Shown: in pieces, positions 18,377 to 64,000 of the stretch
Numbering within the stretch: the stretch's first letter is position 1
How the letters are laid out: every line of letters starts with the position of its first letter
NCBI RefSeq assembly: GCF_022458985.1
Contig: NC_061771.1
Span: 26,094,001-26,158,000 of the forward strand
DNA from: Mugil cephalus
Lineage: Eukaryota > Chordata > Actinopteri > Mugiliformes > Mugilidae
Length of the DNA stretch: 64,000 bases
Direction of reading: 5' to 3'
The notes under the pieces: generated by a model
What the model saw: the letters and a program-made list of their open reading frames with translations, nothing else
What the model was told of the DNA's origin: nothing
Databases searched by the model: none
Program-made: the position numbers and the translations under genes

Positions 18377-20591
18377 CTAGTCCTTCTTCTTCAGTTTCTC
18401 CTTAATATTATCCTTCAGATTCGTAAACCCTTCCTTAACCTTATCCTTCAGATTCGACATCTCATCCTTCAGATTTGTTAACCCTTCCTTAACCTTATCC
18501 TTCATATTCGTTAACCCTTCCTTAACCTTTTCCCCCACTTTCTTCAGCTTCTCCTTAAATGTCTTCTTCCTCTGAACAGTCTTCTTCTTCAGCTTCTCCT
18601 TAACCTTATCCTTCAGATTCGTTAACCCTTCCTTAACCTTATCCTTCATATTCGTTAACCCTTCCTTAAACTTTTCCCCCACTTTCTTCAGCTTCTCCTT
18701 AAACGTCTTTTCCCCTTGAACATTTCTTCTTCGCTTCTCCTTAATTTATCTTTCGTTAAAAACCCCTTTCCCTTTAACCTTTATCCTTCATTTCTTTAAA
18801 ACCCTTTTCCTTTAAACCCTTTTTTCCCCCAGCTTCTTCCTCTGAACAGTCATCTTATTCTGCTTCTTGTTGGAATTAGCAATAGTTGTTTCGACCACTG
18901 AAAATAGCCTGGATGACAAAGGTCTATGAATCCAAATCTTTTTTTGTTGGTGTACGGCCCCCCGGTAAAAGGGACAAAACCGTAGGCCTGCCTTTAAAAC
19001 ACCATGCCCACCAGAGTCCCCCTGTGAGAAGGGGAACTGTTTATGGAAAGGTTTGTGCCTTTTTTCATTAAAACACCGATAAAATCTTAAACTACTGAAA
19101 ATTTTCCACTTGTAGTGTACCAACTCACATGAAGCACCCTTTTCCATCAGCTTGCCACAGAACCAGTGTGGGAACTCTTAATTCACTGATTTGGTGCAGT
19201 CAACGTTTTAACATTTGCCCACTGAAGAGTTCTGATTACCCCCTACTACGAATGAATAAAAAAGGTTGTAAAATAAAAAACAAAAAAATCTCCAAAGAAT
19301 GAATCGGGGGCAAAAAATTTTGTTTGCCAAAATAAATTCAGTTGAAATGAATCACATAAATTTTTTCAGTTTTTAAAAAAAATTCCCCAGTAAAAAGGAA
19401 AAATTCGAAATTAAAGAAATTTTTCCCCGTAAATTCCACCTCTTCTTTGTTGTTCCCCATGTGGGTGGAGCTTTCCTGCAATCTGCCCCTCACCCCCCTG
19501 GAAATAAAAATAATTTTTAAAAAAAGAAGGGTTACCTTGCTTAAAATTATTTCTTTTAAAAAACATTAGAAAAGAAGTGAAGAACCAAAAAAGGAAAAAA
19601 AAGATAAAATAAAATGTAATGAAAAAATGAAAAATAAAAAATTTATTATATTTTTCCTTTTTTTTAAAAATAAAGCTTTTTTGCCTTCTGAGCATTATGA
19701 TTAGAATTTAATAAATACAACAAAATTGCCAAAAAATATGTTTGTGAGTAAAAATGAAAAAAAACAAATGAAAAAGAAAAACATCGTAAATTTCCACTCA
19801 AAATCTTGGTTTTGATTATTTTGCAAGACCTAAATGCGGGAAATTTTTTGTTCCTTCCGGGTACTTAGTACATATATCATGGTCTCTTTTTAAAGATCGC
19901 AGGTTCTGTAGTTATGTCCCTTTCTCTCCTGGACCTGGATGCCTCCTAAAGACTGAAAAATTTTTTGCAAGCACAGATAAGTTTATTACTCTTACATTTT
20001 GGTAAAAACCCTAAAATCTGTTCCTGTAAACGTTTAATCCCCCTAATCTTTTTGGGGGTTTGATCAAAATTTAAGCTCAGAAATTTTGGGATATTTTTCT
20101 TACAACCCCTGACTTCCAGCGTGAGCCAAAGTCAAACCCACTGGTCTGATCAGAGAGCCTCCACGATGAAAATTTTTTTTTGATCGACCATTTACTGATA
20201 CGCGCCTTTTGGGTTACATTGTTAAACCTTTAATGACCTTTGGCCCTCCACACTGTGCTCACGTGGCCTAAAAGAGAAAATGATCTCTTGGGGGAATTTT
20301 GTTTTCCCAACTTTGTGCTCCCTCACTGCTAAACATAGAGTTTAGATAAATCCTTTATTACAAAACCCCAAAAATGTCCAAATCTACTAAAATATTTTAG
20401 AAGTATAAAAAATATATAATGTCCTCTTTCCATGCTTTAAATGAGGGAGGAGACGTACATTAAACCTTCAGAACTAGCTCTAAAGGATCAACAAAACAGT
20501 GGGGTCAAGTTTAAAAATGAAGAAATCACAAAAACATCATTTCTCCCCCCCCGCCCCACAGCAGAACAAGAAGCAGCGTCAGACAAGCCAT
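18377..20591 (-). pseudogene. Gene A: S1 protease copy with KVKEGLTN tail, 5' part corrupted by noise
   Basis: The clean 3' end (18,377 to about 18,700) encodes a lysine-rich tail with 11-residue repeats such as KVKEGLTNMKD and KVKEGLTNLKD, ending KEKLKKKD and a TAG stop. An AATAAA lies 3' of it at 18,300-18,305. Upstream all other exons can be located: GDSGG near 19,010-19,025, exon 5 near 19,130-19,250, exon 4 near 19,427-19,495, exon 3 near 19,800-19,960, exon 2 near 20,105-20,270, and exon 1 to its ATG at 20,591. Every one carries indels and homopolymer errors, which look technical because they continue through all flanking DNA. The real gene may be intact, and its tail is the closest relative of gene B's. 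I label it pseudogene only because the sequence as given has no open coding path. Confidence 0.75.
18380..18690 (-). repeat. 33-bp coding repeats, gene A tail
   Basis: Tandem 33-bp units encode 11-mers with hydrophobic residues at positions 2, 6 and 9 (KVKEGLTNMKD). A TVQRKK motif separates two blocks. Confidence 0.8.
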
Positions 20592-23500
20592 CGTTTTCAT
20601 TCGTTTCCCCAGTGCTTCTGCCCCATGGCACAAACTTTTACATGTTACCACTCAGTTGGTCATGGAGCAGCCAATCACAGAGCAAGGTTTTCAACAGAAT
20701 CACTTGTGAATGCAGCTTACACATTCATGCAAATGTCATGAACATTTCAAGTCTTTTTTTTCCAAACACGCAGAGGCTCCAAGAAAACGAAAAAGAAAAA
20801 TGACATCTGACGTTTGCAAAGTTGCCTCTTCTCTAAAGAAATTTTATGTAAAGTCATAACAGCACACTTTAATCACTCCCGGGGAAAACACATCACTTTA
20901 CCCGTGGTCGGTGTAGCCCTTGGAACATAAAACGAAGCTGAAATTTATATTCATTGGCCTCCATCACCCATCAGAAATGTAAAAACACTTTCAGCATTTC
21001 CCCAAAATGATTCATTGTTCACGTGTTCAGCGATAAGCAAACACGGAAAATTCTCTCTTTTTCCCTCAACAAATCTCTACTCACGTTTCTCTTGTTCTGT
21101 GCTGCAGAGTTTTCAGTGAAAGTCCCCTTGATCCACTTTATAAATTAGCTCCAACATGAACTGATCGTTCATCACTGTGAAAATACCGAGAACAACACAG
21201 GACCAGACAGGGACCAACCCCCGGCCAAAAACACAGAGCACAGCCAGAGACCAACACGGACACAGCACAGAGACCAACACAGAGCCCAACCAGCTGACTA
21301 GTCTCCCATTAGTATTTCAGTGGCGAAAATAACATAAAAATACAGCACACCAGGCACAGGTATAGAAGCTTTGACTGGAGCGCCTCCAAAACTTAGTAAA
21401 ATGTAAAAAATAAGTATTTTGACCATTACATATGCACTGGCAGTGGCTTTAGTAAGATTCTTTTTAAATTTATTTCTGTTGTCCTCCCAGTGCAGGGAGC
21501 CTTCATAGACATTCACTCACCTGCGTACTGTTGAAAAGAACTTTAAAAAGAAGTCACTCATCCCTTTTGACCTTCCCGCTGAAGAATATGTTTTTAAAAT
21601 ATTTCTTTCACAAAGCTTAACACGAGGTCTTTGTTCCGACAAATTTTCTTTCATTTTGAAACTTTATTTTTTCCCAAATGACATTCAGTCTGTGTTATGA
21701 TTTACTATAAAGACCTGGAAGTGGATTTATTATCTTTGATTTCTTTATTATTTTAATTTTTCATTTAATTTACTTACAGCCCAACCCCCTAGATAAAGGG
21801 ACTAACGAGTGTGTGATGGACTGGTCCTGTAGGGGTTTGATGAACAAATTTTTTTTGCAGCAACAGAAACTTTTGGGGTTTTTATTTTTTAAAAAATGTT
21901 TTTTGTAGTTATAGGGTGTTGGGAATAAAATAAAAATGTTTTATTATAAAAAGTGGAGTAGTTGTGGATGAGGGGCTTTCCCCGTGTCCCCTATTCTTTA
22001 TCAACACCAGATCAAATACAGGTTCTTCCCTCCACAACGCTGCAGATCGCGTCCCACCGATGATAACACACTCCCATTTTTTTGTATTTTACAAACCAAG
22101 CCTTTAACTGCCGAATTAATCTTTCCTTTTTTGTTTATCTGTTAAACCTAACCCCCAAACAGCCCGAACAAAATTCCAAAGAAATTTTTGGGAAGACGAT
22201 TCAGATCTTCTTTTGCAGGACCCGTATCGTTTCATAAAACCCATCGTCCTTTTTTAAACAGACGTCAATTCTTGAACCCTTTCCCAAAAGATTTTGCTTC
22301 ACCCTCAGGAGACTTTTTATGGGGGTTTTTGTTTGCAAGAATTTTAAATTGACATTAGTCCCGTGGGTTTTTATCTTTAAAAAAAATGAGGCTAAGTAAT
22401 GAATTCCCTGTGTGAGACGGAAATGTGTGAAATGTGAAAAAGTTTTGCTCAGAGACGCCAGGGAAGCAGCGACTTTCTACAGGTGAGGAGTGGCTATCCC
22501 AGGAAAGACGATGGCTGCTGCTGTGTTTACTGCTGCTGCTGGAAGTGACAGGTGACTTTTTCATTTTCTGAGTTGAGTTGACACAAAAACAGAGCTCAGA
22601 ATCAAAATTTTACTGTATTGAAAGCAGCACAATAAAACTCAAAAACTTTAAGGTTCAGATCCTAAAAAACCCAAACTTAAAACAATAACAATCGCTCCCA
22701 TCACCCGTTTTTCTACCTTAATGTAAGATCTGAAAATGTGTTCGAAAATTAAGTAATAGGAAAGTGCCTTCAGATACAATAAAAAGATAAATGTAGTCAT
22801 AATTACATTATGGCAGTTGTGCTGTTTACGTTCAGTAAAGAAATACGAGGTAAAAGCTGTTCTTGTCCATTTGAAGTAAAATATACATATAAAGGTGTAA
22901 TAATATAGTATTAAAAAAGGATATTATGGATTTGGGGAATGAGCGGACTTTAAAATGAACAGTTTGAATCCTCTTAAAAAAGTTTCTTTGTGTTTTTTGT
23001 GTCGGGGCCCGTTTGGAGTTGGGTTTTTCACGATAGACAAAACAGAGGAAAAAAATTTTCGGGTAGTTAAAGGCTTGTTTGTAAAATAAAAAGGTGGGCA
23101 CTCTAAGGCGGCGGAAGACACGATCTGTCAGCGTTGTGGAGTGGAAGACCTGTTTTGCATCGGGGTTTTGATAAAGAATAGGTGAACGTGGTGAAGCCAC
23201 TCATCCAAATTTTACTCCATTTTTTATAATAAAAATTTTATTTTTTTCCCAACACCATAGAACAAAAAAAAACAGTTTTTAAACAATAAAACCATAAAAA
23301 AGTTTCTGTTGCTGAAAAAAAATTTGTTCATAAAAAACCTCTAAGGCCCATGTCCACACTTTTTTGTCTTTGTCCCTTTTTTAAAGGTGGTTGGGCTGTA
23401 AAAAAATTTAAAATGAAAATTAAAAATTTATAATGAAATAAAAGTAAAAATCCATTTTCCCCAGCATCATTATTAGTTAACTCACTAACACAGACTGAAT

Positions 23501-24298
23501 GTCTTTGAAAATTAAATAAAAGTTTAAAAGGTGAAAGACATTTTTGTCGTGGAAAAAAGACTCGGGTTTTAAGCTTTGTGTAAGCAAATAGTGAATATAC
23601 ATATTCTTAGCTGAAAGGTAAAAAGGATGAGTGCTTCTATCTAACGTTCTTATCAACGGTAGACAGGTGAGTGAATGTCTATGAAGGCCCATGCACTGGG
23701 AGGTTACAACATAAAAATTTAAAAAGAATTTAAAAGCACTACCAGCTTAAATTTAAGGAGTTCTTCAGTCACTTTAACTGTTTTTTGGGAGGGTGCTCCA
23801 AAGCTTCTATACCTGTGCTTGGTGTTCTGTTTGTTTGTTTCCACCCCCCCCCCAAAACGTCCCCTTTTTTCCCCCCCCCCCCCCCCCGGGTGTCTCTGGC
23901 TGTGTCTCTGGTTGTGCTCTGTGTTGTGTTCTGTGTCTCATTTCAGTGTTGTTCCAGGTCTACACCGTCCTACGGGTAAAGGTGGTTTTCCTGGGAGATG
24001 ATGTTGAAGTGTGCGGTTGATTACTTTAAAAAAATTAGCTTCAGAGAAAGAAAAACTTTGCATTAACTCAAGTCATTTTTACTTTTTACGTTTTTTTTTG
24101 GGAAGCCTACTGTCTTTTTGGGTGAAAAAAAAGATTTAAAATGTTTTGCTTTGATGAATGTGAAGAGAGCACTCACAGATGATTCTTTTTGATAAACCTT
24201 GCTCTGTGTTTGGGCTGCCCCAAAGACCAACATAGTGGTAAACAGGGTTTAAATAATTTAGTCCCACTGGACAGAAGTACGGGAAGAGGAACGAAAGC
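20592..24298. repeat. Noisy copy of the palindrome
   Basis: The left arm continues from gene A exon 1, the spacer lies at about 22,265-22,915, and the right arm runs to P2' exon 1. The GCTGCT run (about 22,514-22,542) and the TGTGTCTC minisatellite (about 23,890-23,945) are in corresponding positions. The long C run at about 23,870-23,887 is likely an error. Confidence 0.7.
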
Positions 24299-25995
24299 GA
24301 TGGTCCTCTGACGTTTTTCTTCTTGTTCTGCTGTGGGTCTGGTAGAGAAGATTTTTTATGTGATTTCTTCATTTTGAGCTTGACCACATATGTTTTGTTG
24401 ATCATCAATGCTAGTTCTGAAGGTTTAATGAACGTTCCCTCCCTCATTCAATGCACGGAAAGGGACATTATGTTTTTTTTATCTTCTTACAATTTGGAAA
24501 TTTGGGCTTTGGGTTTTTTTGTAAAAAGGTTTTATCTAAACTCTTGTTTAGGTTTGGGGCAGTGAGTTATGTTTTTTTTCAGTGAGAAAAAACCAAACCC
24601 AAATTTTGACCAATTTTTCCAATCATAGAAATCATTTTCTCTTTCGGTACCCAGTGAGCACAGTGGTGGACGGCCAAAAGGTCACGGAGGCAAGACTGTG
24701 GAAAAAAAGGAGCGTCGGAAATCACGTGAAAGTGAAATGGTCCAGTGTCAGTGTCCGTCTTTTAGGAGTACACCAGGTAAACAAAGCAGGTGGCATAACG
24801 GCCACAATTTTGGGATTCTACAAAGTGAACAGGGACCACAGATATCATGTTTTTAAAGTTGCCTGAGGGGAAGGAATTACTGACTTTTCAAAATCGATTC
24901 CTCTGTTGTCTTGTGATGCAATGCAGCCCCCAGTTGGAGTATTTAAAAAAATGTATAATTTTTACTTTATTTTAATTTTATTTTTTTTATTCATTTTTAT
25001 TAAAAAACACATTTTTTGCAACGGCTTTGTTTTTAGTATAATTCCTAAAAAAGATTCTCAGTAGAAGCTTCAAAATTTTAAAAATAAAATAATCATAATT
25101 TACAAAAAGGGAAAATAATTTTGAGCTACTGACTGGCCCTTCTTTTTGTTTGTCCTTTTTGTTTTTTGTCGCTTTTTTCTAGTGGTAGATTGAACAAATA
25201 TGAAACTAAAATAAAAAGTAAAGTTTTATCGGTTGAGTTTAGAACTTCTTCTTTTGATTTTTTTTTTTTTTCAAGGGGAAACAAGTGCAGATTGCGGTTT
25301 GGATCCATCCCAGGGGCCCTAAAGAAAGAAGGAGATTTTCTTTGAATTTCATTTATCATAATTTTTAATTTAAACCCAAAATTTAATAAAGGGGGCTGAC
25401 ATTTCATCTGTTAATAATATAAAAATTAAAAAACATAAATACCATCTGACTGTTTTCCATTTTATCCTTTTAATGGGAAATTTTTTTTTAAAATTTTGAA
25501 TATGATTTATTTATAGGGAAGGTTTTGGGGTAGGGTTTTCTGTGTCTCAGATTCTTTCTAGGGGTTTTCATTTCTCTTTTTCTTTACTTTGATTTGACCA
25601 CCCCATCAGAAACTCTGCATGTGCAGTGTTAAGTCGTTGCTGCACTAGGCTGAAAGAACTTAAGAAGAACACATACATCATTTTCCAGCCGGTTCTGTGG
25701 TCAAGTGATGAAAGGAGGCATCTCCTGGAGTTGATACGTATGCCCGGGAAATCTTCAAAGTTTAAAAAAAAAAATAAAGCACAAACCTTTCCAAAAACAT
25801 TTCCTCTTTTTTACAGGGTGACTCGGGGGGGAGGGGTGTTTCAAAGACAAGCTTACGTTAATAGCTTCACCGGGAAAATGATACACATGCAACTAAAGAA
25901 GCATTTGGATTCTAGACATTTGTTCTCAAGACTATTTCCCAAAAGGATACAAAGGTTATTTTTTTTTCGAAAGAGAAAAATTTAAGTCACTCTTT
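24299..25995 (+). pseudogene. P2': noisy copy of inverted protease pseudogene
   Basis: It matches P2 in order: exon 1 near 24,299-24,345, the exon 2/3 fusion near 24,650-24,910, exon 4 near 25,280, exon 5 near 25,600-25,710, and exon 6 near 25,815-25,990. The same exon 2-3 fusion as in P2 is present, so that lesion predates duplication of the locus. Additional frame breaks cannot be told from sequence errors. Confidence 0.7.
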
Positions 25996-25999
25996 AAAT

Positions 26000-28900
26000 C
26001 ACTTGAGGTTTTTTAAAGGGGGCATGACACATTAAAAAATGTTATAAAAATTTAAAGAAAGTCTCCCCCACCAAAAAAAAATTTTATATGTTTTATCACT
26101 GATGGGCCAAAAAAGGGTTTTCAAAATCTTGCCCTTTAAGTTCACGTTAAAACACAGGACGTCGCCATCCGGGGGGGTTTTGTCCCAGACGTGACTCATT
26201 GATTTGGGCGCTGACTTTGCGCACATGAGAAATGCATGTACTTTTAAAAAATGCAAACAAATGGGACAAACCAAAAAATTTAGCTGGCAATTTATTGAAA
26301 AAAAATTTAATGAAATATTTTGCTGTTTGGATCAGCGATCAAATTTTTTTTTTTTTTATTTTTTTTTAATACGACTACATACAAAAATTTAACAAAAAAA
26401 GAAATATGAACAAAGTGTATTTGGTGTGTGTGTGTGTGTGTGTTGTGTGGTGGTGGTGTGAGACCCATCTAATTAGTATTTTACCCGTTAATACAAAAAT
26501 CAGGAATTAAAGTTATCACATTTTTTTTTATATTTAGAAAGGGTTTAAAAATGAACTAGGTAAAACAATGCTTCCATTTAAAAAGTATTAAAAAAAGGGG
26601 AAAATAAAAATGATAATAATAAAACAAACAAAACCAAAAGACATAACAAACAATTAATAAAATAGTGATAAAAATTACTTCGTGAAGGATAATGAGAGTG
26701 TGGAGGAGGGGGGAAGGAAGGGGAAGATATTCGTTTTTAAACTTAAAATGTGTTGAATAATTTACCCCACACTTTTATTGTGAATACTGACCCCCAGACA
26801 CCCCCTTTCCCATTGGTTAAAAAATGCACCCCTTGACCAAACAGTAAAGTGTGTCAACGTTTTTAAAGGGAAAAAGGGGAAAAATTGTGGGATACACAAT
26901 ATTCAGTTTATGGTGTGACTGCAGCCCAAAAAGGAAAGACGGATTTGGAACTTTTTAAGTTTATTATTTTGTTTTCACCCGATGGGTTTTTTCTGGTAGT
27001 AATAGTTTTACAAAAAGCATGATCATTACCTTTTAAAATGGAAAAATTTTTAATACCAAATTGTTGTTTGCTAAATTTGTACTTAAGTTTTGTATTTCAC
27101 CTAGATTTAATTCTAATTCGAAAAAGGTTTGTTAAAAAAGTTTGGGGTTTTCCGCGAAACACCTAATTTTTCCCCTCGGATTTTATGGGTTTTTTGTGTG
27201 GTTTTAGGTCCAGGTTTAATCATTTGTCAAAAATGAAAGGACAATTGTAAAATGACCAGGGGGGTTGTGCGAAAAGAAGATACCCAAAAAAGGGAGTGTA
27301 GACAGTTTTTAAGTGAAAAAAAGGTAAAACCAAAAGTAGTCAAAAACAGCCCCAAATTTTTTAAATAGTTATAAAACAGTGGTTAATTGGTGTCTCGGGG
27401 GCCTTGTGACCCTGGGAACCGCCCGATCAATGCAAGGTCGTGTGTGATCTTAAGAATTTGAAGGATGTGTATAAAAAAAATTTGTAAGATGTTAGAGCAC
27501 AAAGTCGAGATGAACTTTAATTTTTAAGTATAAAACATTTAATCAAAACCCTTTTGTAAAGGTGGGTCTATTTAAAAGCCGCCAGATTTTTGGTCTTTTT
27601 CCCCCGGGGTAAATAGTTCAAATATATATTTTTTCTCATTTTTATCTGTCTTGACATGCAGGGAGTGAGGCTGAAAACAGAGAGAGAAAAAATCAAGCTT
27701 TTCTGCCCCTCCTTGACAGTTTTCCCCCCCCTAAAATGTTTTTTCTTCACTTTCAGCCAAAGCCCCGACCGATCCCATGAGGGGGTTCGACGACGAACCA
27801 AAAAAAAATCCTTATGTTTTAAATTTTGTACACTTTTCCTTTGTTGTGCATGTTCCCTTTGTTTCAAGTCCCCTTTTAAAGGGTGATTATGTCACAAAAC
27901 TTCCCCGAATAAATATCATGTGGACTCCAACCCTGCATGGCTTTGTTTTCTAGAAAAGCGAAAGGTTTTTTTTTGTTGTTTTCACTTGTCATGTAATGTT
28001 AAAATTTTTTTAAAATAAAATTTCACGTTTAAATTTTTTGGCTTTCTACATAAGTCGCTAACAGCAATTTAGGAAAAAGAGAAATTCGATATTTTAAAAA
28101 TTGGCTGCCGTCCTGCAACATGCCTTTAACCTATTAGAAAACTACTGATGGGGCTGGTCACACCGTTTTTTATCAGGCATACTATTCGTACTAGCCGGCT
28201 GTTGGTCTCATCATATTTTTAGGTCAACAATTGATTTCACTGATGAAAGATTACTTTCTACTGTGTTTTTATCGTGCACTCTATGACTGAATGTTATGGA
28301 AAAAAGAGGACTACATAGATGTAACCGAACCTTTTCATGTCATGACTTTTCAATTATAGCGTACTAACTGACATCAAAACATACAGCAACATTGAAGTTT
28401 TAAAATCCAATTGCATCTTGGTGGATCCCGTTGATCTAAAAAAACTGATATTTTCCAGGAATAAAATTATTTCAAAAAAAACAGGGCATCGTTTCAAGTC
28501 ATTTGGGCCCGGATAAGGAGAAGGGGAAAGTTTGTCTTTCAACACCTGCCGGACCTTTTTCGTCGGGTTTTTTTACCTTGGTATTTTTATTTTTTAGTAG
28601 TAGTCATTTGGGATTTTTGGGCTGATGAAAATGCTTTAACTGTCGGCGGGCTCAAAAGGGCTCCCCATGCAGAGGGGGGCAGTTAAAGGGGACTTTATTT
28701 CAAAATGTACGGGGGGGGAACCGCAGAGTGTAATAAAGGCTATGAAAAAAAACCCCCCCGACACGGCTATGAAAAACTTATCAGAGTAAATCCTCCAGAA
28801 GGAAAAAAAAAGTCCACGGGTTGAAAGCTTTAAAAAAAAGGGGCTCCAAAAGGGAGGAAACTCACTATAACTACACTAAGACAAGCTAACCCGACCTAAA

Positions 28901-32840: not shown

Positions 32841-33299
32841 AAGTCCTACACGTGGTCAAAGGTGAAAGGGAATGCCCCATGACACCACCCCTTAAATTTT
32901 TTCAGTCCTGCGTTTGGTGTCTGATTTTGTCTGTTGTAATTAATCTCCTCAAGAACAACATAAGAAATAACAGTAGATACTCCATATAGACAGCTCCCAG
33001 TGTTTCAGGATCCCAGCTAGGCCTCTTTTCTGGTAAATATGAGCTCATAATTAGTAAGTCACTGTTATAAGATGAGGTCTACATTATTAATCCACTTATA
33101 TTTCTTAATTAAACGATTAACTTTTGTAGCCCTGGTCTGTAATGAGTTGAACCTGAGTGTTAACATATGCATATGCTGAGAATAGACAGCTCATTGAAGC
33201 AGGGTTGCAGTGTCATGTAATATTTATTCTGGAACAGTTTTGCAACATGTTTATCCTTAACCACAGAAGAAATCACTACTTAGTGCCCTCCTTGTTCTC

Positions 33300-35504
33300 C
33301 TAGTCCTTCTTCTTCAGCTTCTCCTTAATCTTATCCTTCAGATTCGTAAACCCTTCCTTAACCTTATCCTTCATATTCGTTAACCCTTCCTTAACCTTAT
33401 CCTTCATATTCGTTAACCCTTCCTTAACCTTTTCCCCCACTTTCTTCAGCTTCTCCTTAAACGTCTTCTTCCTCTGAACAGTCTTCTTCTTAAATTTGTT
33501 CTTCAGATTTATCCACTTGTCTCTCACAATCGACGGTATTTTTTTAACCTTGTCTATCAGATTATTCACCATCATCTTTTTAACTTCATTCCGCCTCTGA
33601 ACAGTCTTCTTCTTCTTCATCTTCTCCATCAGATTCTTTAACAGATTCGTCTCCTTAATGTCCTTCTTCATCTGAATAGTCATCTTATTCTGCTTCTTGT
33701 TGGAATTAGAAATAGTTGTTTCAATCCACTGTAAATAGCCTGGATGACAAAGGTCTATGAATCCAAATGCTTCTTTTGTTGCGTATACATGGCCCCCAGT
33801 GAAAGTGACTAAACCGTAGAGCCGGCCATTGAACACCACTGCTCCACCAGAGTCACCCTGTGAGAAAGAGGAACATGTTTATGGAAAGGTTTGTGCCTTA
33901 TTCATTAAAACACTGATGAATCTTAAACTACTGAAAGTTTTCCACATTAGTAGCTGTACCAACTCACATGACATGCATCCTTTCCATCAGCTTGACCACA
34001 GAACCAGTGCTGGGAACTCTTAAGTTCACTGAGTCTGGTGCAGTCAACGTTGTTAACATTTGCACACTGAAGAGTTGCTGATTCACCACCTACTACGAAT
34101 GAATGAAAAAGAGTTGTCAAATAAAATACAACAAAATCTCCATAGAATGTAATCTGGGGCAGAAAAGTGTTTGACCATAAATGATATTAATTGAAATGAA
34201 TCAAATCATATTTTCAGTTTTTCAAAATAAATTGCCCAGTTAAAACGGACAAATTCTGAAATTAAAGAAATAATTCAAAGTAAATCTCACCTCTTTCTTT
34301 GTTGTTGCCCATGTGGGTGGAGGCATGTCCTGCAATCTGCACCTCATCTCCCCTGGAAATAAAAATAATTAAAAGAAGAAGGTTACCTTGACTTAATATT
34401 ATTTCAGTTTCAAACATTAGAAAAGAAGTACAAAAATAAAAGAAAAGGAAAAATTAGATAAAATAAATGTAATGTTAAAATGTATAATAAAATATTTAAT
34501 ATACTTTCCTTTTTTTAATTATGAAGCTTCTGACCTTCTGAGCATTATGAATTATGAACTATAATAAATACAACACAATTGCCAAAAATGTGTTTGTGAG
34601 TAAAAAAATAAAATAAAATAAATAAATTATAAAAATGAAAGCGCAAACATCAGTATATATTTCACTACTCACAATCTTGGTTTTGCATTGCAGTTAGCAA
34701 GACCTATAATAGCTGGAATTTTTGTTCCTTCCGGTAGCTTCAGTAACATAATATCATGGATCCTCTTTTTGAAGATCGCAGGTTCTGTAGTTATGTCCAC
34801 TTTCTCTCCTGGACCTGGATGCACTCCTAAAATGACTGACAATTTTCTGCAAGCACAGATAACACATTGTTACGTCTTACATTTTAGGTAAAACCCTGAA
34901 TACTGTTCCGTGTCAACAGCTTAATCACATAATCGTTATGAGGTTTGATCTAAATTTAAGACTCAGAAATATTTGGATATTTTTCTTACAATCCTGACTT
35001 CCAGCAGTGAGCCACAGTCAGAACCCACTGGTTGTTGATCAAAGAGCCTCCACAGATGAAATTATTGTTTTGATCGACCAATTTCACATGATACAGACGC
35101 TCTGTTGGATTACATTGTTGACCTTTAATGATTCCTTTGTGCACATCCACCACTGTGCTCAGTGTGGTACCTGAAAGAGAAAATGATCTACTATGAGTCG
35201 GAACTTTGTGCTTCCAACTTTGTGCTGCCTCACTGACTAAACATAGAGTTTAGATAAATCATTTATTACAAAACACCCAACAGCCCAAATCTACTCAAAT
35301 ATGTTAGAAGTATAAAAATATCAGTAATGTCCTCTTTCCATGCATTGAATGAGGGAGGGAGACAGTTCATTAAACCTTCAGAACTAGCATCTGATGGATC
35401 AACAAAACATGATGTTGTCAAGTTTCAAAATGAAGAAATCACATAAACATCATTCTCTACTCACCGACCCACAGCAGAACAAGAAAGAGCTTCAGACGAG
35501 CCAT
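33300..35504 (-). CDS. Gene B: secreted S1 serine protease with 11-mer amphipathic tail
   Basis: The six exons on the minus strand are 35,465-35,504, 34,990-35,170, 34,673-34,846, 34,291-34,352, 33,968-34,089 and 33,300-33,857. All have GT/AG borders and matching phases, giving 378 aa. A signal peptide (MARLKLFLVLLW) is followed by the pro-region and IIKGQQC. ICGGS and AHC hold the catalytic His (about residue 68), DIMLLKL the Asp (about 105), and DACHGDSGG holds the S1-pocket Asp (about 190) and the Ser (about 196). The S1 domain ends at about 242 (LQWIETTI). The rest of exon 6 encodes a Lys-rich tail with two TVQR motifs and four 11-mers (KVKEGLTNMKD type) up to KKKD-stop. The residue before Ile-Ile is Gly, not Arg or Lys (codon at 35,133-35,135), so normal zymogen activation is doubtful. 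AATAAA lies at 33,223-33,228. S1 membership is firm. Closest kin (granzyme, mast-cell protease or trypsin) and substrate are unknown. Confidence 0.9.
33303..33431 (-). repeat. 33-bp coding repeats, gene B tail
   Basis: Four tandem units encode KVKEGLTNMKD (twice), KVKEGFTNLKD and a final KIKEKLKKKD. The 11-residue period with hydrophobics at 2, 6 and 9 fits an 11/3 amphipathic helix. Confidence 0.85.
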
Positions 35505-39440: not shown

Positions 39441-39558
39441 GCTGTCTTGGGCTCAGCCAACCCCTCATTCCTTTTTACGCACATTTTTCTGCGGCATCTC
39501 CCTGCGCCCGTGCCCACTGCTCTAGCTATTTGACCCCTCTCCTCCTCCAAAGACTATC

Positions 39559-44810: not shown

Positions 44811-44969
44811 TCAGTATGTGTGACGTGTGTAACACTGGAGAGATTCAGTTTTTCATAGAAAAAACAGGGCTTCATGCAGGGTTGCAGTGTCACATGATAT
44901 TTATTCTGGAACAGTTTTGTGACATATTTACCCTTACCCACAGAAAAAAACATTACATCCCGCTGGGTT

Positions 44970-47284
44970 CTACTCGCCGCCGTCAGCCTCGCCGCCGTCG
45001 GCCTCGCCAGCATTGGCCTCGCCGCCATTCTCCTCACCACCGTTGGCCTCGCCGCCGTTGGCCTCGCCGCCGTTGCCATCGCCGCCGTTGCCATCGCCGC
45101 CGTTCTCCTCACCACCGGTGGCCTCGCCGCCATTCTCCTCGCCGCCGTTGCTCTCACCGCCGTTGCTCTCGCCGCCGTTGGCCTCGCCGCTGTCGGCCTC
45201 TGTGACTTCCTTATTCTCCTTGACCCCCTTCTTGTTCATCTTCTTCTTCAATTTTTTCATCAACTTCTTCATCTTCTTCTTTATCTTCTTCATCACCTTC
45301 TTCATCTTCTTCTTTATCTTCTTCATCACCTTCTTCATCTTCTTCTTTATCTTCTTCATCACCTTCTTCATCTTCTTCTTTATCTTCTTCATCATCTTCT
45401 TCATCTTCTTCTTTATCTTCTCCTTGATGTCGTTCTTCATCTGAATAGTCATCTTATTCTGCTTCTTGTTGGAATTAGCAATAGTTGTTTCAATCCACTG
45501 TAAATAGCCTGGATGACAAAGGTCTATGAATCCAAATGCTTCTTTTGTTGCGTGTACATGGCCCCCGGTGAAAGTGACTAAACCGTAGAGCCTGCCATTA
45601 AACACCACTGCTCCACCAGAGTCACCCTGTGAGAAAGAGGAACATGTTTATGGTTTGTGCTTTATTAATTAAAACACTGATGAATCTTTAACTATTCAAA
45701 TTTTTCCACATTAGTAGCTGTACCAACTCACATGACATGCATCCTTTCCATCAGCTTGACCACAGAACCAGTGCTGGGAACTCTTAAGTTCTCTGAGACT
45801 GGTGCAGTCAACGTTGTTAACATTTGCACACTGAAGAGTTGCTGATTCACCACCTACTATGAATGAATGAAAAAGAGTTGTCAAATAAAATACAACAAAA
45901 TCTCCATAGAATGTAATCTGGGGCAGAAAGGTGTTTGACCATAAATGATATTAATTGAAATGAATCACATCATATTTTCAGTTTTTCAAAATAAATTTCC
46001 CAGTTAAAAGGGACAAATTCTGAAATTAAAGAAATAATTCAAAGTAAATCTCACCTCTTTCTTTGTTGTTGCCCATGTGGGTGGAGGCATGTCCTGCAAT
46101 CTGCACCTCATCTCCCCTGGAAATAAAAAAATTAAAAGAAGACAGTTACCTTGACTTAATATTATTTCAGTTTCAAACATTAGAAAAGAAGTACAAAAGT
46201 AAATGAAAAGGAAAAATAAGATAAAATAAATGTAATGTTACAAAATAAAATGAAATATTTATTATACTTTGCTGTTTTTAATCATGAAGCTTCTGACCTT
46301 CTGAGCATTATGAATTATAATAAATACAACAAAATTGCCAAAAATGTGTTTGTGAGTAAAAAAATAAAATAAATAAATTATAAAAATGAAAAAGCAAACA
46401 TCAGTATATATTTCACTACTCACAATCTTGGTTTTGCATTGCAGTTAGCAAGACCTATAATAGCTGGAATTTTTGTTCCTTCCGGTAGCTTCAGTAACAT
46501 AATATCATGGATCCTCTTTTTGAAGATCGCAGGTTCTGTAGTTATGTCCACTTTCTCTCCTGGACCTGGATGCACTCCTAAAATGACTGACAATTTTCTG
46601 CAAGCACAGATAACGCATTATTACGTCTTACATTTTAGGTAAAACTCTGAATACTGTTCCATGTCAACAGCTTAATCACATAATCGTTATGAGGTTTGAT
46701 CTAAATTTAAGACTCAGAAATATTTGGATATTTTTCTTACAATCCTGACTTCCAGCAGTGAGCCACAGTCAGAACCCACTGGTCGTTGATCAGAGAGCCT
46801 CCACAGATGAAATTATTGTTTTGATCGACCAATTTCACATGATACAGACGCTCTGTTGGATTACATTGTTGACCTTTAATGATTCTTTTGTGCACATCCA
46901 CCACTGTGCTCACTGTGGTACCTGAAAGAGAAAATGATCTACTATTAGTTGGAACTTGGTCCTAAAATTGGTTGGTTTTACTCACTGAACAACATAGTCA
47001 CTCACTGCCTCAATGACTAAACATAGAGTTTAGATAAATCATTTATTACAAAACACCCAACAGCCCAAATCTACTCAAACAAGTTTGAAGTATAAAAATA
47101 TCAGTAATGTCCTCTTTCCATGCATTGAATGAGGGAGGGAGACAGTACATTAAACCTTCAGAACTAGCATCTGATGGATCAACAAAACGTGATGTGGTCA
47201 AGTTTCAAAATGAAGAAATCACATAAACATCACTCCCTACTCACCGACCCACAGCAGAACAAGAAGGAGCGTCAGACGAGCCAT
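44970..47284 (-). CDS. Gene C: secreted S1 serine protease with cationic 11-mer plus acidic GGEAN tail
   Basis: The exons are 47,245-47,284, 46,741-46,921, 46,424-46,597, 46,055-46,116, 45,732-45,853 and 44,970-45,626, with GT/AG borders and consistent phases, giving 411 aa. The signal peptide is MARLTLLLVLLW. The activation site reads VDVHKR|IIKGQQC (Arg codon 46,884-46,886), the only intact-gene copy here with a canonical basic residue before Ile-Ile. The catalytic triad is His68 (VAHC), Asp105 (HDIMLL) and Ser196 (GDSGG), with pocket Asp190. Cys pairs equivalent to 22-157, 42-58 and 168-182 are present. The partners of 136-201 are both missing, and Cys191 lacks Cys220. The tail (from about 244) has six Lys-rich 11-mers (262-327), a linker, then about 14 acidic five-residue units to the stop. 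AATAAA lies at 44,900-44,905. It is likely secreted or stored. Function is unknown. Confidence 0.92.
44973..45191 (-). repeat. 15-bp coding minisatellite, gene C (about 14 units)
   Basis: Encodes GGEAN, GGESN, GGEEN, GGDGN and similar units, residues 339-411. The sequence is GC-rich against an AT-rich background. The antisense strand reads as Ala/Ser/Pro- or Val/Gly/Leu-rich frames, which are shadows. Confidence 0.95.
45225..45422 (-). repeat. 33-bp coding repeats, gene C (6 units)
   Basis: Six near-perfect units encode 11-mers of the form KKIKKKMKKVM, residues 262-327. Hydrophobic residues space 3-4-3-1, one stripe of an 11/3 helix, and all other positions are Lys. Confidence 0.95.
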
Positions 47285-50197: not shown

Positions 50198-50560
50198 AAT
50201 GCGTAAAGCAAAGAGTAAATCCGGTGGAGCACAGGTAAAAAGAAAAAAAACGTTAGTAGTTCAGAACTAGAAGTTCTGCTGCAGGAGAAACTATATTTAG
50301 CCTTAGTGGAGGTTGCACTAACACAAAAAGGAGGCCTGAGGGCAGTTGCGCGTGCAGTGAATGAAGTGTCGGGAGAGGGACGGGACGGGAATGGTTCGAC
50401 CTTAACTGCGAAACATTGCAAAATTCCGTCGGGAGATGCAACGGACTGGAGGGGGGACAGCATGTCGTGCAGACACGACACCCATGTCTGAGTTGGACCA
50501 GCGCATTGGGGCCATCATCGGGGGAGACGGCACTCTCGGGTAGGATATATGGATTACATT
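50198..50560 (+). pseudogene. Myb/SANT-like accessory protein remnant (unit C)
   Basis: MRKAKSKSGGAQVKRKK is followed, after stops and frame changes, by VEVALTQKGGLRAVARAVNEV and a region reading MSELDQRIGAIIG. This resembles the Myb/SANT-like protein that partners Harbinger transposases. It is broken in both units. It converges with the transposase. Confidence 0.55.
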
Positions 50561-50689
50561 TTCCCACCTTGCTTTTTCAGGAGCGCCATCAATTGAGTCT
50601 CTGGACACGGACCTGGGCACCAATGCAATGCTGTCATCCCCTCCCTGTGCCGCTGCTTCTCCAGAGGAATGCGTATGTATATGTATGTA

Positions 50690-50799
50690 TATGTGTATGT
50701 ATGTGTATGTATGTGTATGTATATGTGTTTGTATATGTGTATGTGTGTATATATATGTGTATATATGTGTATGTATATGTGTGTGTGTATATATATCTG

Positions 50800-50844
<45 letters not shown>

Positions 50845-50845
50845 C
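50690..50845. repeat. TATG/TG microsatellite
   Basis: GTATGTATATG units grading into TATATA and a pure TG run. It separates the Myb-like remnant from the transposase and generates the long His/Thr/Tyr and Cys/Val/Tyr frames on both strands. Confidence 0.9.
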
Positions 50846-51449
50846 CATCCCACGGAGCCGTTTTGAAAAATATAGGAGTCGTGTGCTCCTCCCGGGAACC
50901 GGGACACTACGTTCAGCAGGTGGTTATTTGAGTCGCAAATGAGTTGTACATTTATTGAGTGATAATGCCTGCGGTTGAGATATGTAAAGGAGTCTGGAGA
51001 GGGTGCCTTGATGCGCACGTGGGTGCAGTCCATTGCGCCGATGGTGTTAGGGAGACCAGCAACAAGAGGAAATCCTCTCTTGACTGCGACTCGCTCTTCT
51101 GCTGTGTATTGAAATTGGATGTATTGCGTAGCGAGTTGATTAATTGCATCCACAACTCGAAGGACAGCGCGGCTGGTGGATGACTGTGAGATGCCCACCC
51201 TGTCTCCCAGCTCTCGTTGAAAGGATCCAGTGGCCAAAAACCCGAGGGTCGATAGTACGTGCGGGGGGACAGGGTCGGACCGATGTGTGTGGCTCCGAAG
51301 TGCTGGCCCACAAATAGTTGCAGAGATCGTTGAGAATAGCTCGTGGGAGCCTCGTCGCTCTCTGAAATAAATAAATAAATAAATAAATAAATAAAATAAA
51401 AAAATCTACGTGGTCCTGAAAGATTCGTTCCCTTCGTAGGGCACGATCC

Positions 51450-53359: not shown

Positions 53360-54336
53360 CATGTGTAAACAATGTTGTTATAATGTGCATGCTTACAAGT
53401 GTCGTAATGTTAAAAAAATAAAAAGTCTTAATGATATAAAATACTTATTACTTTCACCTTGTATGTGTTTTTCTTGAATTTCTTATATATACATTTCTTG
53501 GACTTAGTTTTACCACTTAAGGGCAAGTTACCATATACGGTCCCTTTGTTGACCTTGATTTTCTACATGAAAGTTAAAATTTTAGAAAATTTTCACAACA
53601 GTAAAAAAGTCTTTATAAGTCCATTTTATTGTTTTTTCCTTCTGAATTGAAATTCAAATTAATAAATGGTACATGGACCTACCCTTTAGCCTTTACAATG
53701 TGGGGCTGTTGCCCACAGTGATGTGTTTTCCATGGGCCCAAAATTCCTGGTGGCGCCCCTGAGTCCACTATATATTGAAAAGTCAAGTCATGAATAGTTT
53801 GCAGGTATTGCAGTAGAATACCGCAATGAAATCATCAATGAATCAATGAAATCTATATTGTTGACCTGAATACATATGATGAGAACAGACAGCTCATGTG
53901 CTAGATACTGACTATATGTATAGCCTGTAAAAATAAAAGGCTGCGACTGAACACCATCAGTAGCTTTTAATAGTGCTCAATGGCATATTGCAGGATGGCA
54001 GCCAGATTTTAAAAAATGCAGTATTTTTTCTGATGCTCTAAATTGACTGCTGTAGAGAGGACTACTTATGTAGAAAACCCATATCAGATTAAATTGTGGC
54101 ATTTATACTTAAAAATCACACATTACATTGATAAACAATGAGTTGTTCATGACAGCAATATAGTAAATTATGTCACCAAAATGTTTCTATGTTTCTATGT
54201 ATCTCTAGTACCTGTTATGTATAGTATCAGGTAAAAACAATCAGTCGGTTCAGCTTTTCATACAAAACGAGGTCTCGTGCAGGGTTGCAGTATCATGCAA
54301 TATTTATTGTGGAAGAGTTTTGTGACATGTTTGTCG
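53360..54336. other. 3' flank of an E-type gene, no coding
   Basis: AT-rich. 53,850-54,100 matches, inverted, the P2 3' flank (9,830-10,260). AATAAA-like sequence near 54,300 belongs to the E-type exon 6 remnant. Confidence 0.5.
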
Positions 54337-54413
54337 TTAACCACGGAAGAAACCACTACATTTTTTTCTCTTTGGAATAGCAATAGTTGTCTCGATCCAC
54401 TGTAAATAGTCTG
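54337..54413 (-). pseudogene. Last-exon remnant of an E-type protease
   Basis: Encodes only the final residues (DYLQWIETTIAIPKRKKCSG...) and TAA, the same end as gene E at the right edge. It breaks off at about 54,413, where the 3' flank of gene D begins. This is the junction of the 9.5-kb tandem duplication and not a gene. Confidence 0.85.
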
Positions 54414-54486
54414 GCTTCATGCAGGGTTGCAGTGTCACATGATATTTATTCTGGAACAGTTTTGTGACATTACATCCCGCTGGGTT

Positions 54487-56922
54487 CTACTCGCCGCCGT
54501 CAGCCTTGTCGCAGGGGGCCTTGCCGCCGTTGGCCTCGCCGCCGTTGGCCTCGCCGCCGTTGGCCTCGCCAGCGTTGGCCTCGCCGCCGTTGGCCTCGCC
54601 GCCGTTGGCCTCGCCAGCGTTGGCCTCGCCGCCGTTGGCCTCGCTGCCATTCTCCTCACCACCGTTGGCCTCGCCGCCGTTGCCATCGCTGCTGTTGCCA
54701 TTGCCGCCGTTCTCCTCACCACCGTTGGCCTTGCCGCCGTTGGCATCGCCGCCATTCTCCTCACCACCGTTGGCCTCGCCGCCGTTGCCATTGCCGCCGT
54801 TGGCCTCGCTGCCGTTGGCCTCGCCGCCGTCGGCCTCTGTGACTTCCTTATTCTCCTTGACCCCCTTCTTGTTCATCTTCTTCTTCAATTTTTTCATCAC
54901 CTTCTTCATCTTCTTCTTTATCTTCTTCATCAACTTTTTCATCTTCTTCTTTATCTTCTTCATCACCTTCTTCATCTTCTTCTTTATCTTCTTCATCACC
55001 TTCTTCATCTTCTTCTTTATCTTCTTCATCATCTTCTTCATCTTCTTCTTTATCTTCTCCTTGATGTCGTTCTTCATCTGAATAGTCATCTTATTCTGCT
55101 TCTTGTTGGAATTAGCAATAGTTGTTTCAATCCACTGTAAATAGCCTGGATGACAAAGGTCTATGAATCCAAATGCTTCTTTTGTTGCGTGTACATGGCC
55201 CCCGGTGAAAGTGACTAAACCGTAGAGCCGGCCATTAAACACCACTGCTCCACCAGAGTCACCCTGTGAGAAAGAGGAACATGTTTATGGTTTGTGCTTT
55301 ATTCATTAAAACACTGATGAATCTTTAACTATTCAAATTTTTCCACATTAGTAGCTGTACCAACTCACATGACATGCATCCTTTCCATCAGCTTGACCAC
55401 AGAACCAGTGCTGGGAACTCTTAAGTTCTCTGAGACTGGTGCAGTCAACGTTGTTAACATTTGCACACTGAAGAGTTGCTGATTCACCACCTACTACGAA
55501 TGAATGAAAAAGAGTTGTCAAATAAAATACAACAAAATCTCCATAGAATGTAATCTGGGGCAGAAAGGTGTTTGACCATAAATGATATTAATTGAAATGA
55601 ATCACATCATATTTTCAGTTTTTCAAAATAAATTTCCCAGTTAAAAGGGACAAATTCTGAAATTAAAGAAATAATTCAAAGTAAATCTCACCTCTTTCTT
55701 TGTTGTTGCCCATGTGGGTGGAGGCATGTCCTGCAATCTGCACCTCATCTCCCCTGGAAATAAAAAAATTAAAAGAAGACAGTTACCTTGACTTAATATT
55801 ATTTCAGTTTCAAACATTAGAAAAGAAGTACAAAAGTAAATGAAAAGGAAAAATAAGATAAAATAAATGTAATGTTACAAAATAAAATGAAATATTTATT
55901 ATACTTTGCTGTTTTTAATCATGAAGCTTCTGACCTTCTGAGCATTATGAATTATAATAAATACAACAAAATTGCCAATAATGTGTTTGTGAGTAAAAAA
56001 AATAAAATAAATAAATTATAAAAATGAAAAAGCAAACATCAGTATATATTTCACTACTCACAATCTTGGTTTTGCATTGCAGTTAGCAAGACCTATAATA
56101 GCTGGAATTTTTGTTCCTTCCGGTAGCTTCAGTAACATAATATCATGGATCCTCTTTTTGAAGATCGCAGGTTCTGTAGTTATGTCCACTTTCTCTCCTG
56201 GACCTGGATGCACTCCTAAAATGACTGACAATTTTCTGCAAGCACAGATAACGCATTATTACGTCTTACATTTTAGGTAAAACCCTGAATACTGTTCCAT
56301 GTCAACAGCTTAATCACATAATCGTTATGAGGTTTGATCTAAATTTAAGACTCAGAAATATTTGGATATTTTTCTTACAATCCTGACTTCCAGCAGTGAG
56401 CCACAGTCAGAACCCACTGGTCGTTGATCAGAGAGCCTCCACAGATGAAATTATTGTTTTGATCGACTAATTTCACGTGATACAGACGCTCTGTTGGATT
56501 ACATTGTTGACCTTTAATGATTCCTTTGTGCACATCCACCACTGTGCTCACTGTGGTACCTGAAAGAGAAAATGATCTACTATGAGTTGGAACTTGGTCC
56601 TAAAATTGGTTGGTTTTACTCACTGAACAACATAGTCACTCACTGCCTCAATGACTAAACATAGAGTTTAGATAAATCCTTTATTACAAAACACCCAACA
56701 GCCCAAATCTACTCAAACAAGTTTGAAGTATAAAAATATCAGTAATGTCCTCTTTCCATGCATTGAATGAGGGAGGGAGACAGTTCATTAAACCTTCAGA
56801 ACTAGCATCTGAGGGATCAACAAAACATGATGTGGTCAAGTTTCAAAATGAAGAAATCACATAAACATCATTCCCTACTCACCGACCCACAGCAGAACAA
56901 GAAGGAGCGTCAGACGAGCCAT
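54487..56922 (-). CDS. Gene D: secreted S1 serine protease with longest acidic repeat tail
   Basis: The exons are 56,883-56,922, 56,379-56,559, 56,062-56,235, 55,692-55,753, 55,369-55,490 and 54,487-55,263, all with GT/AG borders and the same phases as B and C, giving 451 aa. The S1 domain is almost identical to gene C: signal MARLTLLLVLLW, His68, Asp105, pocket Asp190 and Ser196. Unlike C, the residue before IIKGQQC is Gly (codon 56,522-56,524), so cleavage after Lys would leave an extra Gly at the new N-terminus. The tail has six Lys-rich 11-mers (262-327), a linker with VTEAD, then about 22 five-residue units (GGEAN, GGEEN, AGEAN) to the stop. AATAAA lies at 54,445-54,450. Part of the 3' flank seen beside C is deleted. 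Function is unknown. Confidence 0.92.
54490..54828 (-). repeat. 15-bp coding minisatellite, gene D (about 22 units)
   Basis: Encodes residues 339-451. It is about eight units longer than in gene C, with the reading frame kept throughout. Confidence 0.95.
54862..55059 (-). repeat. 33-bp coding repeats, gene D (6 units)
   Basis: Six 11-mers as in gene C but with the Val/Leu variant unit in a different position, which suggests unit shuffling or conversion. Confidence 0.95.
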
Positions 56923-57530: not shown

Positions 57531-57660
57531 TGAGAGGATCACTTCTACCCTGTAGGTACGATGTAGCTGTGGACCCTAAGGTCGTATTCTGACCAGGCTC
57601 GCGTGGTCTGCTTGAAATTGACCTTTTCTCTGGTCTGGATCTTTTGGGTAGGTGTCAATA

Positions 57661-60165: not shown

Positions 60166-60289
60166 TGGATTACATTTTCCCACCTTGCTTTTTCAGGAGC
60201 GCCATCAATTGAGTCTCTGGACACGGACCTGGGCACCAATGCAACGCTGTCATCCCCTCCCTGTGCCGCTGCTTCTCCAGAGGAATGCG

Positions 60290-60361
60290 TATGTATATGT
60301 ATGTATATGTGTATGTATGTGTATGTATATGTGTTTGTATATGTGTGTGTGTGTGTATGTG

Positions 60362-60422
<61 letters not shown>
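60290..60422. repeat. TATG/TG microsatellite (unit D)
   Basis: Counterpart of 50,690-50,845 with different TA and TG run lengths. Confidence 0.9.
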
Positions 60423-60424
<2 letters not shown>

Positions 60425-61040
60425 CCATCCCACGGCGCCGTTTTGAAAAATATAGGAGTCGTGTGCTCCTCCCGGGAACCGGGACACTACGTTCAGCAGG
60501 TGGTTATTTGAGTCGCAAATGAGTTGTACATTTATTGAGTGATAATGCCTGCGGTTGAGATATGTAAAGGAGTCTGGAGAGGGTGCCTTGATGCGCACGT
60601 GGGTGCAGTCCATTGCGCCGATGGTGTTAGGGAGACCAGCAACAAGAGGAAATCCTCTCTTGACTGCGACTCGCTCTTCTGCTGTGTATGGAAATTTTAT
60701 GTATTGCGCAGCGAGTTGATTAATTGCATCCACAACTCGAGGGAGAGCGCGGCTGGTGGATGACCGTGAGATGCCCACCCTGTCTCCCAGCTCCCGTTGA
60801 AAGGATCCAGTGGCCAAAAACCCGAGGGTCGATAGTACGTGCGGGGGGACAGGGTCGGACCGATGTGTGTGGCTCCGAAGTGCTGGCCCACAAATAGTTG
60901 CAGAGATCGTTGAGAATAGCTCGTGGGAGCCTCGTCGCTCTCTGAAAAGAAAAAATAAAATAAATAAATAAAAAAAATCTACGTGGTCCTGAAAGATTCG
61001 TTCCCGTTGTAGGGCACGATCCGCAATCTCTCTCTCTCTA
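60425..61040 (-). pseudogene. HARBI1-like transposase, C-terminally truncated (unit D)
   Basis: In this copy the N-terminal piece (ADRALQRERIFQDHVDF) is in one frame with the transposase core through a Phe/Leu stretch derived from the A-rich repeat. The first two catalytic Asp are present and the C-terminal Glu region is missing, replaced by TG repeats (about 60,290-60,422). Confidence 0.85.
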
Positions 61041-61544
61041 TATATATATATCATTGTTTTGTAGGCCGTGGATGGAGAAATGCCACTTATACTGTAAATA
61101 GGGTGGGATCACTAATTGACGGCATGGTTTCCAATTTACTTGATTCATGTTAAAGGTTGGCACATTTAATTGAATTAAAATGGGGGAAAAAATTAAATGA
61201 CTGAATACATACATATGACAGAAATTGCACTATAATGTATTTAATTGAACTTAACAAAAGAAGACAACACAACCATGCCAACATGTCGCTACTGAAATGT
61301 GCTTAAGAGTACTCCTGGGTGTTCGCAGGATTTGTTCTTACACTAAGAAAAATCCTGGATGAGAAAAAAATCCATGAATGCCACAATCTTCGTAAAACCT
61401 TCGTGAGTAGGACGGTTCATGAATGAGGCCCAGTGACATTAGTCCACATGGGGAGGGAGATCTAAAACATGACAAACCATTGGATCTGACATCCCTCTGA
61501 AACATTCACTGGAGCAGCCCGCTATGGCTCTGAATAGCAAACTG

Positions 61545-62550: not shown

Positions 62551-62559
62551 TCCCTTTGC

Positions 62560-63821: not shown

Positions 63822-64000
63822 TTAACCACAGAAGAAACCACTACATTTTTTTCTCTTTGGAGTAGCAATAGTTGTCTCGATCCACTGTAAATAGTCTGGA
63901 TGACAAAGGTCTAAGAATCCAATTGCGTCTTCACCTGCACGTGTAGCGTTCACGCTGAAAGCGATTAAACCGTAGAGCCGGCCATTGAACACGACTCCTC
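63822..64000 (-). CDS. Gene E: S1 protease last exon, short-tail form (partial)
   Basis: Only the last exon from just after GDSGG is in the window. It encodes GVVFNGRLYGLIAFSV, an N-glycosylation-type NAT, AIGFLDLCHPDYLQWIETTI, and ends KRKKCSGFFCG-TAA at 63,822. It has no 11-mer or acidic repeats, so it represents the family without the extended tail. The two Cys in the tail are not seen in B-D. The rest of the gene lies beyond the right edge. Confidence 0.85.
   Translation of the reverse strand, partial: GVVFNGRLYGLIAFSVNATRAGEDAIGFLDLCHPDYLQWIETTIATPKRKKCSGFFCG

Follow-up and report, generated by a model that had tools for sequence, protein, structure and literature searches.

A cluster of tailed S1 proteases in Mugil cephalus

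The 64-kb stretch of the Mugil cephalus genome analysed here (the window, in what follows) comes from a percomorph fish of the order Mugiliformes, and it carries a cluster of secreted-type S1 serine protease genes, named A to E and all on the reverse strand, in which the last exons of B, C and D run on into long tails built of in-frame repeats (Table 1). The original prediction described B, C and D as six-exon S1 genes with a catalytic triad, and this is borne out: all of their exon junctions are GT-AG, the His-Asp-Ser residues are present in each, as they are in the proteins P0002, P0006 and P0005, and by eye each product begins with a leader of the kind expected of a secreted protein. The Pfam trypsin domain PF00089 matches B at 101.4 bits and D at 101.3 bits (cut-off 20.6), and the tailed S1 proteins have the chymotrypsin-like fold. 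The product of gene B is letter for letter the public predicted protein P0001, 'serine protease 1-like [Mugil cephalus]', and Mugil cephalus proteins are the top matches when the S1 part of gene D is used as a protein-search query. Over the 243 residues of their S1 parts, B differs from C at eight positions and from D at seven, and C and D differ at only one, with a nonsynonymous divergence (dN) of 0.0018 that is below the synonymous divergence (dS) of 0.018; C and D lie within a tandem duplication, whose matching stretches of 6004 bp and 2806 bp are 97.0% and 96.6% identical, respectively.

Table 1. Coordinates of the protease genes, tails and related remnants in the window
Feature	Position	Strand	Description
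Gene A, body	18600..20694	-	S1 gene disrupted by numerous small indels that probably stem from assembly error
Gene A, tail	18380..18595	-	Clean part of B-type tail, 72 codons open
Gene A, fossil	18334..18357	-	Ancestral C-terminal codons behind A stop, 22/24 bases
Gene B	33300..35504	-	Six-exon S1 protease, 379 residues; identical to P0001
Gene B, exons	35504-35465, 35170-34990, 34846-34673, 34352-34291, 34092-33968, 33857-33300	-	
Gene B, tail	33303..33710	-	136 residues, net +32, 11-residue amphipathic repeats in last third
Gene B, fossil	33257..33280	-	Ancestral C-terminal codons (CSGFFCG-stop) behind B stop, 22/24 bases
Gene C	44970..47284	-	Six-exon S1 protease, 412 residues
Gene C, exons	47284-47245, 46921-46741, 46597-46424, 46116-46055, 45856-45732, 45626-44970	-	
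Gene C, tail, basic part	45207..45479	-	91 residues, net +44, 33-bp (11-residue) units
Gene C, tail, acidic part	44973..45206	-	78 residues, net -22, 15-bp (5-residue) units
Gene C, fossil	44934..44957	-	Ancestral C-terminal codons behind C stop, 20/24 bases
Gene D	54487..56922	-	Six-exon S1 protease, 452 residues
Gene D, exons	56922-56883, 56559-56379, 56235-56062, 55753-55692, 55493-55369, 55263-54487	-	
Gene D, tail, basic part	54844..55116	-	91 residues, net +44, 33-bp units
Gene D, tail, acidic part	54490..54843	-	118 residues, net -22, 15-bp units
E-like fragment	54264..54414	-	151 bp of tail-less last exon, own AATAAA (54308-54303), fused to D 3′ untranslated region
Gene E	63822..64000	-	Terminal exon alone (63,998-63,822), truncated at the edge of the window; no repeat tail; terminus ATPKRKKCSGFFCG

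The sample of relatives consists of 168 retrieved proteins, 166 of which fit the S1 profile (one of the contributing searches supplied 120 of 253 matches listed). It includes percomorph secreted S1 proteases of the same gene family (kallikrein-8-like, anionic trypsin-2-like and snake venom serine protease-like, all PF00089); most of those lacking repeats are 42–66% identical to the mullet enzymes and have in common with them a VDxxKR-IIGG start and a short Cys-rich end. No more than 20 residues follow the S1 domain in 157 of the 166, two have 21–40, and seven have more than 40, namely mullet P0001, P0002 and P0006 together with P0013, P0061, P0146 and P0149, the latter four being without such repeats. 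A search for S1 proteins with such tails in one clade, which had been proposed as a check, thus finds three among these matches, all of them from mullet. The tailed mullet proteases are a real variant of the S1 family, lineage-restricted among the relatives retrieved, and one with an unusually readable origin.

S1 proteases had been expected to end, as a rule, close to their last helix, but acrosin and the glycosylphosphatidylinositol-anchored S1 proteases do combine an S1 domain with an extra C-terminal module. Acrosin shares with the tailed mullet proteases the order of S1 domain and C-terminal extension; its extension is proline-rich, however, and other S1 extensions are membrane anchors rather than tandem-repeat helices. 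No extension of this kind built from helical repeats surfaced outside mullet in the searches made, and a literature search for a described family of this layout, in which subscription papers were not covered, found no published description of such proteins. With the B tail as query, the matches listed (7999 candidates scored) were P0001, P0002 and the weak and unrelated P0091 and P0092, while the low-complexity lysine/GGEAN tail had no search of its own; among the matches listed no other mullet species appears by name, and genes C and D are not seen as such (120 of 253). Pfam gives only weak coiled or charged matches below cut-off within the tails, and NCBIfam shows no tail domain for B or E and a single, spurious transposase match for P0006.

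Anatomy of the tails and the fossil of an older end

Beyond the WIETTI helix the last exon continues in the same frame for 136 (B), 169 (C) and 209 (D) residues of in-frame repeats, as had been predicted. The coding frame of these tails is free of stops, whereas the two remaining sense frames contain 19 and 16 in B and, in both C and D, 24 and 7; among 2000 first-order resamples of each tail an open frame was found in none (B), two (C) and one (D), although repeats inflate this test. The tandem-repeat periods are divisible by three in all 18 rows that lie in tails and in five of the 26 other rows (period 4 or more), a contrast with a Fisher p of 3e-8 that is indicative only, since the rows overlap.

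There are two types of tail, one in A and B with 11-residue amphipathic repeats, the other in C and D, where an acidic 5-residue repeat comes after lysine-rich 11-mers. The coding-frame repeats all lie in exon 6 and comprise K/M/I/V 11-mers, KEGLTNMKDKV-type 11-mers (in B) and GGEAN 5-mers, and by eye the tails have almost no proline. The 33-bp array measures 191 bp in C and D alike; in the 15-bp array D has exactly eight units more than C. Both types open with NSNKKQNKMTIQM, and this common start suggests that they have a single origin. We note also that an AATAAA is conserved behind every tail, so that a transcript containing the catalytic-serine exon and ending at that poly(A) site would include the tail, barring splicing within the exon.

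The predicted division of tail types holds for A/B and C/D but fails for gene E, to which a third type had been assigned: its last exon is tail-less and ends ATPKRKKCSGFFCG-stop, with a short CSGFFCG terminus. The 58 residues of E are found unchanged in the mullet protein P0093, its public model, which lacks exon 2 and with it the catalytic His. Relatives in other fish have comparable short Cys-rich ends, such as RGCGLLCG and KSCLSCFG. When the last 24 coding bases of E are compared with the window, the best sites are E itself (24), the fragment on the D side (23), B and A (22 each) and C (20), the next having 18; in A, B and C this fossil terminus comes directly after the new stop, and in D it has been lost. 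The fossil in C is in frame with the C tail, reading stop-NPAGCNVFFCG-stop. These positions behind the new stops suggest that the tail arose ahead of the ancestral last codons, which later stops cut off, and the tail probably grew inside the old C-terminus, between the WIETTI helix and the CSGFFCG end.

The notothenioid antifreeze glycoprotein (AFGP) genes and the chimeric afgp/tlp genes are described in PMC10256766 as antifreeze genes derived from trypsinogen, and they resemble the mullet cluster in that a short repeat has expanded in frame within a teleost S1 cluster and chimeric protease/repeat genes persist. The AFGP repeat as described there is Thr-Ala-Ala, is encoded by exon 2 and has taken the place of most of the protease, whereas the mullet repeat is in the last exon, after an intact S1 domain, and codes for helical charged 11-mers; coding-frame Thr-Ala-Ala repeats upstream of protease exons do not occur in the mullet genes. 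Read off-frame, the 15-bp array (44973-45200 and 54490-54837, reverse strand) is Thr-Ala-Ala-rich and reminiscent of fish antifreeze glycoprotein, which we take to be a coincidence. An 11-residue period with an amphipathic helix is also found in perilipin 4 (PMC5889406), alpha-synuclein and the apolipoproteins; these are not attached to proteases, and the C/D type is far more lysine-rich. Compared with the sequences of solved structures, the B tail comes closest, though weakly, to the 11-residue repeats of alpha-synuclein (expect value 0.0019); a Pfam apolipoprotein match is also weak and far under its threshold (20 bits, cut-off 90), and composition bias is likely.

Apparent exchange of 3′ ends and a putative tethering helix

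The 3′ untranslated region (UTR) of gene D is joined at position 54,414 to an E-like last exon without a tail, which it enters midway, and a CC is common to both sides of the junction. Two further tailed paralogues, P0002 and P0006, lie outside the window or are unplaced; P0002 has a B-type tail with a 23-residue repeat, and P0006 has a C/D-type tail on an E-like protease. When E is included, the tree of S1 parts pairs the tailed P0006 with the tail-less E as its sister (100/99), and the approximately unbiased test rejects a grouping of all tailed copies in one clade (p = 3e-10). The fused junction and the tree conflict together indicate that 3′ ends recombine in this cluster, and neighbouring copies appear to have swapped their tails. 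As to direction, a tail may have moved to the ancestor of P0006 or E may have regained a tail-less end, and either event would need an exchange inside exon 6. We also note that proteases differing at no more than 8 of 243 positions have two types of tail, that the tails of C and D differ by exactly eight 15-bp units, that E lacks one, that the distribution of tails is at odds with the protease tree, and that among the 166 relatives only mullet proteins have them, all of which identifies the tail as the fast-changing, modular part of these proteins.

The reading that we prefer, with moderate confidence, is that an in-frame repeat tail was gained at the old C-terminus, was spread by recombination, and serves as a surface-tethering helix. 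A lysine-rich stretch between WIETTI and CSGFFCG of a secreted percomorph S1 protease would have expanded in the mullet lineage as an in-frame minisatellite of 33-bp (11-residue) units, with one branch adding the 15-bp acidic array; new stops ahead of the old end would have left the ancestral codons as the 3′ UTR fossil seen in A, B and C, and tandem duplication with 3′-end recombination would then have spread, swapped or removed the tail. The tail anatomy can be read off directly, and the order of these expansion steps is our reconstruction. In the protein, the tail would continue the C-terminal helix of the S1 domain as a long 11/3 helix, both cationic and amphipathic, by which the secreted protease may be tethered to surfaces, anionic or lipid, such as mucus, a microbial membrane or a lipid particle, the acidic array of the C/D type perhaps tempering the charge. 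Such tethering seems to us the likeliest function of the tail. The cluster would then show the birth of a protein module, with near-identical proteases, two tail types, a tail-less sister, an ancestral terminus surviving in the 3′ UTR and a junction left by recombination; it would indicate that slippage in a protease gene can create a new protein, as with the Antarctic fish antifreeze, here at the opposite end and with the enzyme kept; and it makes testable the question of whether a young, charged, repeat-built tail is under selection, and for what.

Several observations weigh against this reading or qualify the evidence for it, and they touch on the tree, the helix, selection and the enzyme in turn. 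Without E, the S1 tree places all five tailed rows in one clade (93/88), so that the argument for swapping depends on E, of which only a short row could be used, its N-terminal part having been cut because the public model is without exon 2. As to the helix, the best repeat lag is 11 in B, C, D and P0006 (in P0002 it is 23, then 11), and the hydrophobic moment peaks at 98–100 degrees, with a z-score, taken over 66 residues, of 9.2 in C and 9.8 in D and, over 44 residues, of 4.2 in B, but these are scores of the best position; a moment at 98–100 degrees is also seen in longer windows of most tails, and both tail types keep their amphipathicity. AlphaFold2 predicts one helix for P0006 at residues 245–336, with a predicted local distance difference test score (pLDDT) of about 86–96 over most of it, and helices at 235–299 and 303–377 for B (about 74–96), although lysine-rich helices commonly receive high pLDDT values.

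In the acidic arrays, changes between neighbouring units in the real frame include more synonymous ones than expected, 13 against 5.0 in C and 16 against 9.0 in D, while three of the four control readings are not above expectation and one is slightly above (14 against 10.3). The basic arrays show no clear purifying selection (synonymous changes 3 against 2.3 expected in C and 5 against 2.8 in D), and neither do the array of B, with 1 where 1.9 are expected, and that of A, with 3 where 3.3 are expected; the test is weak in B, where four of six changes are synonymous in a control frame. Changes that keep the residue class in the basic arrays fall below expectation (3 against 5.3 in C, 4 against 6.1 in D), and residue-class conservation was therefore rejected as a proof of tail function. 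Of the earlier proposal that the tail is the evolving functional module, the fast change and modularity thus stand, while a function is suggested at most, given a basic repeat with little or no synonymous excess.

These data bring forward the main rival, which we consider possible though rather unlikely: that the tails, though translated, are neutral, slippage in a minisatellite having lengthened the C-terminus without harm to an S1 fold that was complete before it, and drift continuing to change the result. The state of the basic arrays fits this, as do the differences in length between close copies and a C–D synonymous divergence that is far higher in the tail (0.175, with uncertain repeat alignment) than in the S1 part (0.018). 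It sits less easily with a frame that is open not only in B, C and D but also in P0002, P0006 and the cleanly read part of A, with amphipathicity retained in both types, or with the synonymous excess of the acidic arrays in the real frame, an excess also present in one of four control readings.

The enzymes themselves raise a further difficulty. An Arg precedes the new N-terminus (I-I/V-G-G) in 59 of 61 aligned rows and is kept in C and P0006, but at the activation site of B, D and P0002, three of the five copies with tails, a Gly stands in its place (Lys-Gly-Ile-Ile). Cleavage after the Lys would leave one extra N-terminal residue, and these three may, judging from sequence, not be active proteases. 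One bolder version of the preferred reading, which we regard as unlikely, is that a live module-swapping system is at work, in which last-exon recombination deals different surface-binding helices to near-identical S1 proteases, and that B, D and P0002, their activation Arg lost, have become mere secreted carriers of the helix, a new effector born from the C-terminus of an enzyme. Loss of this P1 Arg would also be expected if the genes were silent or decaying and the repeats noise in unexpressed copies, a reading to which the broken state of gene A as assembled and the absence of C and D as such from the database matches listed could be added. The intact frames, splice sites and triads of B, C and D, the excess of dS over dN in the S1 parts of C and D, the presence of B and P0002 in public annotation and the AATAAA conserved behind each tail all make silence or decay improbable.

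Charge suggests yet another role, in which the tail is a precursor from which proteolysis releases cationic helical antimicrobial peptides, the acidic array acting as a neutralising pro-piece. A net charge of +44 in 91 residues, the strong amphipathicity, the adjoining -22 stretch and the secreted-type start are consistent with this; however, there is no punctuation by dibasic cleavage sites alone, and with lysines throughout, cleavage would shred the helix. We know of no precursor with the order protease-basic-acidic, and we hold this explanation to be doubtful, at about the same low level as gene decay. Trypsin specificity requires Asp189 together with Gly216 and Gly226; compared with rat trypsin, D has the Asp189, but S-W-G at 214–216 is replaced by T-F-T and position 226 is ambiguous, and the T-F-T makes trypsin-like cutting of the lysine-rich tail doubtful.

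Assembly quality and other features of the window

The first half of the window differs in quality from the second. Self-matches involving 1–32.8 kb have gap/mismatch ratios of 0.45–1.79, compared with 0.00–0.41 within 33–64 kb, and the high ratios point to assembly error; annotation in positions 1–32800 should be distrusted. Inverted self-matches are centred near 3.6 kb and 22.4–22.6 kb, as expected of missed-adapter PacBio palindromes. Gene A lies in this half, where its body has 138 gap openings and 160 mismatches relative to B and only its tail reads cleanly; we considered that A might be a biological pseudogene and set this aside, as its indels fit the error pattern of the region.

The published chromosome assembly was made from PacBio subreads with wtdbg2 and polished with POLCA, according to PMC9247318, and this, with the error-rich and palindromic first half, is what could be said for the tails being assembly artefacts. 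We think this very improbable, as B, C and D sit in the half with low gap/mismatch ratios, the repeat units preserve frame, and both tail types recur elsewhere, in P0002 and P0006.

Also in the error-rich part are two forward-strand regions, 5848-9796 and 24186-27939, which represent either two more S1 genes or a single locus that was assembled twice (similarity 77.8%, 164 gap openings); in both, the 3′ UTR is located about 2 kb behind exon 6, with no repeat tail seen. A reverse-strand fragment of the S1 family, containing exons 1 and 2, is located at 744-1369. No known RNA family matches anywhere in the 64-kb window. By eye only, forward-strand open frames at 39526-42080 resemble a retroelement polyprotein, and reverse-strand open frames at 50554-51405 and 60170-61108, inside the C/D duplication, resemble a Harbinger-type transposase/nuclease.

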